64,000 nt of DNA from Natrinema versiforme (GTDB taxonomy: Archaea > Halobacteriota > Halobacteria > Halobacteriales > Natrialbaceae), in NCBI RefSeq assembly GCF_005576615.1, contig NZ_CP040331.1:62001-126000 (forward strand), in the 5' to 3' direction. The notes under the pieces are model-generated. The model was not told where the DNA came from. It was given only the letters and a program-made list of their open reading frames with translations, and did no database searches. A program made the translations under genes and the position numbers. The number at the start of each line of letters is the position of its first letter. The first letter of the stretch is position 1. Positions 38,673 to 46,613 of this stretch are shown in pieces.

Positions 38673-39182
38673 TCAGCTGTCGCCGGCGACTAGGTCCTCG
38701 ATGAACCGGAACCCGTTCACGAACGTCATCGAGTCACCGTACCCCTCACTCGCGAGCACGGTTTCGGCTCCCTCGCCGGCCGCGATATCGGTCGTGTAGA
38801 TGTACACATCGGTCGCCGTTCCCGCGCTGAGGTGTTGGGCAGCTAGGGCAGCAAGGGCGGCGTCCGCACGCTCGACCTCGTCGGCGGGTCGGTCGTCGGC
38901 GTTCGCGATGTACCGCTGGACGCCGTCCATCACCCGCGAGACGACCGGCTTGGAGAACTCGAGCGGCGCCGCAACCGTCGCCCAGCCCTCGTCGATAGCA
39001 GCGTCGATAGGTGGCGCCTCGACGTCGGGGTCGTCGACGGTTAGCTCCTCGTACACCCGTTCGGGCAGGACGAAGGTGACGTTGTTCCGGCGAGCGAAGC
39101 GCCGCACTGCCTGGTAGCGACTGTTCGACGGCTGTCCCATCGCGACGAACAGGCCGGTGTCAGCGATGTGGAGCCGGCTCAC
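38673..39182 (-). CDS. PIN-like nuclease domain protein
   Basis: 169 residues. HIADTGLFVAMGQP carries the first acidic residue of the PIN fold, with further acidic residues at ERADAALAALAAQ and YTTDIAAGEGA. PIN proteins cleave RNA and are often toxins. Its start overlaps the stop of the upstream HTH gene by 4 nt (ATGA), so they are co-translated and may form a toxin-regulator pair. Confidence 0.75.
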   Translation of the reverse strand: MSRLHIADTGLFVAMGQPSNSRYQAVRRFARRNNVTFVLPERVYEELTVDDPDVEAPPIDAAIDEGWATVAAPLEFSKPVVSRVMDGVQRYIANADDRPADEVERADAALAALAAQHLSAGTATDVYIYTTDIAAGEGAETVLASEGYGDSMTFVNGFRFIEDLVAGDS

Positions 39183-39775
39183 GCGTCGTCAGCCGCGTCG
39201 CCGTCGATGGCCAACTCCTCGAGCCCTGCCCCGGCCTCCTCTATCTCGTAATGTTCGTGGACGACGGGCCGGAGCGCCTGCAAGATCATCTCCGCCGCCA
39301 GCGGCGAGATGTCCAGATCCTCCGCCATCAGCCGGTGGGTCACCTCACCGCGTTCGCGGGCGACAGCGTAGGTGAGCGCGGTCGCGAGGCCGGCGACGCC
39401 ATGTCGGTCGATGTAGGTGTCGATGTCGGCGTCCGTCTCGCGGCGGCCGACGGCGTCGATGAGCGCCGGCGTGATCGTGTACTCGCGGTCGCCCGCGGCG
39501 GTCGTCACGGTCAGGTCGATCTCACGGGCGGCGTACCGGCGGGGCTGCTCGTCGTCGGTGACGTCGACGACGCCGGCGTCGACGAGCCGGTTGACGTAGC
39601 TGTAGGCCGTCCCTTGGGCGAGTTCGAGGTCGTCCATCACGTCCTGGACGGTCGCCTCGCCCTCCCGGGCGAGATACGCGTACAACTGGGCCAGCTGTGG
39701 CTCCTTGAGGAGGTCAGCGACCGAGAGGAAGTCCTGGACGATGTCGCCGTCCGCGCGGTTTGAGGTGCGTGACAC
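39179..39775 (-). CDS. HTH regulator partnered with the PIN protein
   Basis: 198 residues from GTG 39775 (VSRTSNRADGDIVQDFLS). A winged helix spans about 30-90 (EATVQDVMDDLELAQGTAYS, YVNRLVDAGVVDVT) and a second helical region follows. The frame further upstream passes through the operator-like dyad and is not coding. It shares an operon with the PIN gene through a 4-nt overlap, and probably binds the dyad at 39788-39813. Confidence 0.75.
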   Translation of the reverse strand: MSRTSNRADGDIVQDFLSVADLLKEPQLAQLYAYLAREGEATVQDVMDDLELAQGTAYSYVNRLVDAGVVDVTDDEQPRRYAAREIDLTVTTAAGDREYTITPALIDAVGRRETDADIDTYIDRHGVAGLATALTYAVARERGEVTHRLMAEDLDISPLAAEMILQALRPVVHEHYEIEEAGAGLEELAIDGDAADDA

Positions 39776-39787
39776 GGTTCGTTCTTG

Positions 39788-39813
39788 ATTACAGTTTACA
39801 GTGAACCAGTAAT
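39788..39813. promoter_or_regulatory. operator-like dyad before the HTH/PIN operon
   Basis: ATTACAGTT, 7 nt, then AACCAGTAAT form an imperfect inverted repeat 13 nt upstream of the GTG start. In this position it would cover the transcription start, as expected for autorepression. Confidence 0.5.
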
Positions 39814-39824
39814 GAGTGTTGGGG

Positions 39825-40163
39825 TCACTCCACCGGCGCCGTATCGAGGTGGTCCTCAAGGTTGCGCGTCCAGTAGGCGGCTAGGCCACTGGGGTTACAG
39901 CGAGCGCAGAGTTGGAGCGTCCCCTTGAGATGCCCGAGTTCAACACAGAACCGCGTCAGTTCCGCAAGCGTGTCGACGACGAGACCGCAGCCGTCACAGG
40001 TGACGTAATCGCGCTCGTCGGGATCCGGCCGCGTCTGGGTGGCGCAGTCGACACAGATCGGGTGGGTGACCCGCTCATCCTGGCCCCAGGTGTGCGCCTC
40101 GCCAGTCTCGGCGCCGGACGGAGCATCACAGAAGGCACAGTCGACGAGGGTTTGCTGCGTCAC
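39825..40163 (-). CDS. zinc-finger protein (DUF7558-like)
   Basis: 112 residues from GTG 40163. CAFC ... CVDC, CDGCG and CARC give four cysteine pairs, enough for two zinc sites. The start overlaps the stop of the split gene upstream (GTGA). I recall the family as DUF7558, common on haloarchaeal integrative elements. Function unknown. Confidence 0.75.
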   Translation of the reverse strand: MTQQTLVDCAFCDAPSGAETGEAHTWGQDERVTHPICVDCATQTRPDPDERDYVTCDGCGLVVDTLAELTRFCVELGHLKGTLQLCARCNPSGLAAYWTRNLEDHLDTAPVE

Positions 40164-40583
40164 TCGGCCTCCGCGTCGGCGTCACGGGCAGCCGTCCAGC
40201 CACGATGGCAGACAGCCAGTTGAGTGATCGAGTCGAAGGCGGTACCGCTCGGTTCGTGGACGAGGACTCGGCCCTCAGGAATGGGTGTGACGACATCCGT
40301 GCCAACGATATCACTGACCGGCTTTGTTGAAACCCTCTCGCCGTCTTGCGGTTTGCTGAGAAGCCAGTTTCGCATCGAATCCGTGTAATCCGGTGGGAAG
40401 AGTCGCTCTTCTCAATGTCAACGCTGAAGGGTTTCAACAGAGCCCACTGACCAGATTGCGGGCCGTCGCGTCGTCGATGTCCGCCGTCACAACGCTGACG
40501 GCATCATGATCTTGGGTGAGAAGCGCTTTCTTAAACTGTTCGTAGTCGGCACTTGTGTCATTGCGAGGATTTGAATCAGGCAT
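40160..40583 (-). pseudogene. small haloarchaeal gene split by a MITE
   Basis: From ATG 40583 the frame reads MPDSNPRNDTSADYEQFKKA to NLVSG and runs into a stop inside the MITE at 40434-40436. Beyond the MITE the frame resumes as SDIVGTDVVTPIPEGRVLVH and ends at 40160. Removing the MITE and one copy of the 8-bp duplication joins NLVS to DIVG in frame and restores a 96-residue protein. The chimeric 71-codon frame starting at 40375 uses MITE sequence for its N-terminus and is an artefact. Confidence 0.8.
40320..40444. mobile_element. 125-bp MITE with IS6-like ends and 8-bp target duplication
   Basis: Ends are GGCTTTGTTGAAACCCT and AGGGTTTCAACAGAGCC, inverted repeats matching at 16 of 17. CACTGACC flanks both sides (40312-40319 and 40445-40452), an 8-bp target duplication as made by the IS6 family, whose ends resemble GGCTCTGTTGAAA. 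It codes for nothing. The intact duplication shows a recent insertion. Confidence 0.88.
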
Positions 40584-40901: not shown

Positions 40902-41324
40902 GGCTCTATTGAAATATTCAGATAGTGACATATTCACAACCCCCGCGTTCAGTACAGATAGACTACTGAACGTCTCTTGGATGGAGATATGAGCCTTCCT
41001 TAGCAAGAATCCACGTCGTCTGTAGCTCGTCGTCGGTTGCAGTCTCTGGAAATAGTATGCATTCGTCAGATTCTCGTGAGTTTTCGATTACAACCTGATT
41101 GAGTTCAGAGTGACTTGAAATATGGTTTGGAGTATCTTTCATGGGCAATTCAGACATATACGTCGTCCGACACCCGCCCTATAGAAAAATGTTACACCTG
41201 ATCAATTGATTATAGACGTTAAAAGCAACAATAGTAGGTACCCTTGATAGTCGATACGCACTCTTCAGCAATCAGCTGTTTCAGACCGTGTTGTGTGTGT
41301 GAAGAAGGGGATTTCAACAGATCC
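40902..41324. mobile_element. region bounded by two IS6-like ends
   Basis: GGCTCTATTGAAAT at 40902 faces GGGGATTTCAACAGATCC ending at 41324. The ends match each other at about 11 of 14 positions and resemble the MITE ends. No target duplication is visible, so these may be unrelated solo ends. A small gene lies between. Confidence 0.4.
40963..41157 (-). CDS. small haloarchaeal protein (DUF7511-like)
   Basis: 64 residues: MSELPMKDTPNHIS at the start, then SDECILFPETATDDELQTTW and ILAKEGSYLHP. The pattern of ECxLFP followed by ELxTTW is what I recall for DUF7511. Function unknown. It sits between two IS6-like ends. Confidence 0.55.
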   Translation of the reverse strand: MSELPMKDTPNHISSHSELNQVVIENSRESDECILFPETATDDELQTTWILAKEGSYLHPRDVQ

Positions 41325-46589: not shown

Positions 46590-46613
46590 GGCTCTGTTGA
46601 AATCCTATTCTTC
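46590..46613 (+). mobile_element. solo IS6-like end
   Basis: GGCTCTGTTGAAATCC then TATTCTTC, resembling the reverse complement of 41301-41324 and of 48555-48578. No transposase remains. Confidence 0.5.

Follow-up and report, generated by a model that had tools for sequence, protein, structure and literature searches.

The window analysed here is a 64,000-nucleotide stretch of the Natrinema versiforme genome, and at positions 40320-40444 it holds a non-coding MITE of 125 bp with a G+C content of 53%. The element is delimited by 17-bp terminal inverted repeats, GGCTTTGTTGAAACCCT on the left (40320-40336, plus strand) and GGCTCTGTTGAAACCCT on the right (40428-40444, minus strand, read inward), which agree at 16 of 17 positions, by a perfect 8-bp target site duplication, CACTGACC, lying directly outside each of them (40312-40319 and 40445-40452), and by relatives of ∼125 bp with the same ends. 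It has no transposase gene, the longest frame within its 125 bp being 41 codons, and it occurs once in this 4.67 Mb genome of five contigs, on a 492-kb replicon that also carries the gene it splits. These features bear out an earlier sequence-only reading of the locus, which had described a non-coding 125-bp MITE with near-perfect 17-bp ends and a perfect 8-bp target duplication. The element is a genuine insertion of an ordinary kind, and the event was likely recent.

The interrupted gene is encoded on the minus strand, with its N-terminal ∼46 codons at 40445-40583 and its C-terminal ∼50 codons and stop at 40160-40319, and both parts line up in order with intact homologues and a second copy of the gene in the genome. 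When the flanks are joined without the MITE and one copy of CACTGACC, an open frame of 291 nt and 96 residues runs from 40583 to 40160 with no internal stop, just as the earlier reading had claimed. Its assertion that the pre-insertion state is known also finds support in the second copy, on the same replicon (C3:468249-468536), which is identical at 270 of 291 positions (93% at the DNA level), contains no element and presents an empty site, with a single GGTCAGTG exactly where the MITE entered the split copy; in this second copy a TAG ends the frame three codons early. Homology between the two gene places continues for ∼500 bp on the upstream side of the gene and resumes in a downstream gene, the intervening genes being different. 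Uninterrupted homologues spanning 80% or more of the 96 residues, with identities of up to 72%, were found in 115 haloarchaeal plasmid records; the protein was matched in 41 of 100 genomes (own included), and 13 named loci in genome contigs carry an uninterrupted homologue. The intact gene, which the sequence-only reading had suggested seeking in relatives, is therefore a single continuous gene on more than 100 plasmids, and among the relatives listed the homologues are single genes; the two fragments do not appear there as separate conserved genes, a finding that the same reading had named as grounds against an insertion. The 96-aa protein matched no family in Pfam, NCBIfam or PHROGs.

Next downstream, at 39825-40163 on the minus strand, lies a gene for a 112-aa DUF7558 protein whose GTG start overlaps the end of the interrupted gene, and its expression may therefore be affected by the insertion. 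The same overlap between the DUF7558 start and the end of the 96-aa gene is found on the Natrinema plasmid pJ7-1. The module beside the 96-aa gene (38673-40163) comprises the DUF7558 gene, a TrmB-like HTH regulator with DUF7437 and a 169-aa protein without a Pfam match, and pJ7-1 has a similar gene order. The region C3:467385-468536 (L065, L012) is a partial second copy of this plasmid module on the same replicon, where a 558-bp segment with two GGCTCTGTTGAAA ends (C3:467385-467942) lies upstream of the second gene copy; this segment was rejected as a candidate, as it forms no unit with target duplications. Ends at window positions 40902, 41324 and 46590 were likewise set aside, there being no units with target duplications. 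The end at 40902-40914 is a lone GGCTCTATTGAAATATT-type end without a partner, situated upstream of the split gene and common to the second copy, and that at 46590-46606 is a lone GGCTCTGTTGAAATCCT-type end without a matching partner.

Since the insertion, the frame of the 5′ part stops inside the MITE, leaving an ORF of 49 aa (40434-40583), and an ORF of 71 codons (40160-40375, minus strand) starts inside the MITE and keeps the host frame up to the natural stop. The latter had been described as a false gene made from MITE sequence; the ORF does exist, but its coordinates relative to the MITE borders place only the first ∼19 codons in the element, the remaining ∼52 being the 3′ half of the host gene. 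The split 96-codon gene is presumably inactive. The MITE accounts for one broken gene, and the 71-codon chimera stands as a warning for annotators.

Relatives of the MITE occur in 21 of 149 genomes, this one among them, and in 32 plasmid records, with no match in phage records; the copies of two same-genus genomes share coordinates with Natrinema plasmid records. Full-length relatives are mostly 123-126 bp in length and 70-89% identical. An exact 8-bp repeat flanks 9 of the 26 full-length copies, this copy included, and three more match at 7 of 8 positions, while exact flanking repeats of 4-7 or 9-12 bp were found in none of the 26. As a control, left and right flanks from different copies were paired, which gave an exact 8-bp match in 0 of 650 combinations. 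From these flanks, the family can be taken as established to be mobile, with 8-bp duplications.

Two other accounts of the locus have to be weighed against this background. The insertion could be old and fixed, with the chimeric ORF now a working gene that starts inside the MITE: the ORF is open, ∼52 of its codons are in the host frame and the downstream start still overlaps it. However, the duplication has no mismatch, each half of the gene has kept its open frame, such a protein would lack the conserved N-terminal half, and no other split copy of this layout occurs among the matches listed in 100 genomes, which together make a working chimera highly improbable. That the element is a short repeat that never transposed, or an error of assembly, with inverted ends produced by chance is barely conceivable, because independent 125-bp relatives lie elsewhere between exact 8-bp repeats, although the presence of only one copy in this genome would be in keeping with it.

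On the question of parentage our results depart from the sequence-only reading, which had assigned the ends to the IS6 type and proposed a search for an IS6 parent sharing them. The assignment is understandable because the MITE end GGCTTTGTTGAAA is similar to the IS6/IS26 end consensus GGTTCTGTTGCAAA, a consensus that is bacterial (PMC6807381). IS6 elements are also abundant, with 38 matches in this genome, and they make 8-bp duplications; these are common to IS6 elements and to the IS5 group described below, and do not discriminate between the two. However, in a search of TIR/TSD-defined elements in this genome and 60 relatives, the clearly delimited IS6-family elements that have 8-bp duplications start with GGCACTGTCTAGTT, GGCGGTGTTCAGAT or GGTCGTGTTTAGTT and agree with the MITE end at 6-10 of 17 positions, compared with 11-15 of 17 for IS5 elements and up to 17 of 17 for the closest IS5 group. 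IS6 parentage was rejected on this difference, the best IS6 agreement being 10/17. IS5 elements of the NF033579 type, which make 8-bp duplications too, begin for example with GGCTGTGTTGAATC or GGCTCTGTTGAATC and reach 15/17, and the end of one IS5 subgroup, GGCTCTGTTGAAATCCT, is accompanied by exact 8-bp duplications. The first 13 bases of this end, GGCTYTGTTGAAA, occur within one mismatch next to the transposase at 26 of 28 loci of the subgroup and at 0 of 27 IS6 loci, a sample that covers the haloarchaeal IS6 clades in part, and no IS6 parent with the same ends was found among these loci. The ends of this MITE copy agree with those of IS5-family units at 15-16 of 17 positions, and many other copies of the MITE family have one end that is identical at all 17. 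The two IS6-family MITEs in ISfinder are, furthermore, 227 and 336 bp long (PMC7986276). We therefore consider it very unlikely that the MITE is an IS6-family derivative mobilised by one of the many IS6 transposases of the genome. Sequence shared between the MITE and the presumed IS5-type parent units, from which it may have arisen by deletion, amounts to 17-33 bp, mainly the ends; the longest stretch, ∼33 bp at the right end, is shared with a single unit, L178, which may itself carry an acquired MITE end.

The IS5 elements with the closest ends form a passenger-carrying group, the presumed parent, in which unrelated passenger genes stand between a conserved left end with its IS5 transposase and a right end common to the units. 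Measured from the left end, the distance to the right end, which has the same 17 bp or very nearly, is 1.07-3.1 kb; the passengers begin just after the transposase stop. Units of this type were recognised at L179, L185, L229, L230, L234-L238, several of L244-L251, L257, L258, L260, L263-L265 and L267, and at C3:228363-230015 in the present genome. An exact 8-bp duplication surrounds the whole unit at 21 of the 34 loci with the left end, and swapping flanks between loci gave an exact match in 0 of 4026 control pairings; by this count the transposase and an unrelated passenger appear to move as one, which is what characterises a transporter IS. Over their left 870 bp the units share 75-88% identity with the copy in this genome, and directly after the transposase stop the units diverge completely. 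Their middles are unrelated in DNA, two near-identical units excepted, and common sequence returns, within subsets only, over the last 50-70 bp. Among the passengers are a peroxiredoxin, a TauE/SafE permease, a PAS sensor kinase, a TehB-like methyltransferase and a GNAT protein, as well as bat-type HTH_10 and DUF7344 regulators and membrane proteins. A 1385-bp pair of ends in the relative G026 was not accepted as a unit, as it encloses no transposase frame and its ends resemble fragments of a MITE.

The full-length copy in this genome (C3:228363-230015, equivalent to L066:1364-3016) is 1653 bp long and has perfect ends, and its IS5 transposase (C3:228386-229234) matches NF033579 with 210 bits against a cut-off of 140. 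Its flanks show no target duplication, and, compared with other copies, one additional base stands directly behind the transposase ATG. The passenger of this copy encodes a lipoprotein-like protein of 178 aa, which on inspection by eye is similar to the passenger of L246.

It is very probable, judging by ends and duplications, that the 125-bp MITE was moved in trans by an IS5 transposase of the type with GGCTYTGTTGAAAYCCT ends, inserted at CACTGACC and truncated the 96-codon gene. An IS5-family transposase would recognise the GGCTYTGTTGAAAYCCT ends, make 8-bp staggered cuts and mobilise the MITE in trans, and the element would land at CACTGACC in the 96-codon plasmid gene, truncating it. We infer that this IS5 transposase group acted on the present MITE copy. 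Against such a mechanism stand the single MITE copy here, and hence the lack of a within-genome series, and the small amount of sequence that the MITE and its presumed parent have in common beyond their ends. As the only full-length element of parent type found in this genome is without a target duplication and has the extra base after its ATG, the acting transposase may be elsewhere or may have been lost.

A MITE that splits a gene is ordinary, and the correction of its parentage carries more weight because it leads to IS5-type units that move many different single genes. It is quite possible, if somewhat short of probable, that an undescribed and widespread haloarchaeal IS5 group with a fixed transposase module, an interchangeable passenger and a short fixed right end has the MITE as its satellite, and that this group has repeatedly captured single host genes and spread them among replicons across Halobacteria as a one-gene shuttle. 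We found no description of such a haloarchaeal IS5 passenger group in the open-access literature searched, and the novelty of the group is uncertain. ISH10 (1592 bp, 8-bp duplication; PMC10264941), judged by its description, may be a member of the parent group that already has a name. If confirmed, IS5 passenger units would offer a concrete route of gene flow among haloarchaeal replicons; the group is worth a survey, with 561 plasmid places to cover, and the capture of passengers is directly testable.

Haloarchaeal MITEs have been reported from Haloquadratum walsbyi (PMC3119063) and, as ISH2, MITEHsal1 and MITEHsal2, from Halobacterium salinarum (PMC10264941). Like the element described here, they are short and transposase-less, have the ends of a transposon and a target duplication of the parent's length, and are mobilised in trans. 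Compared by description, the present MITE is much the shorter, at 125 bp, where ISH2 has 531 bp and MITEHsal2 ∼411-413 bp, and ISH2 owes its movement to ISH8, with duplications of 10 bp, whereas those of this MITE are 8 bp. The IS6-family MITEs MITEHarch3 and MITEBth2 (ISfinder, cited in PMC6807381) are also non-autonomous, and IS6 duplications are 8 bp too; however, taking the ISfinder entries by description, they differ in length, and the ends of this MITE fit IS5, not IS6, elements of the same genomes. Haloarchaeal IS5 insertion sequences of the NF033579 type (∼940 bp) have similar ends, beginning GGCTSTGTTGAAT, and the same 8-bp duplications, but they are autonomous, and the exact ends of the MITE belong to the passenger-carrying subgroup. 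The plan of that subgroup, a transposase with a passenger, is known from transporter IS (tIS) and mobile insertion cassettes (PMC3129680): in both tIS and the presumed parent group the passenger genes adjoin the transposase, whereas the MITE itself carries no gene.
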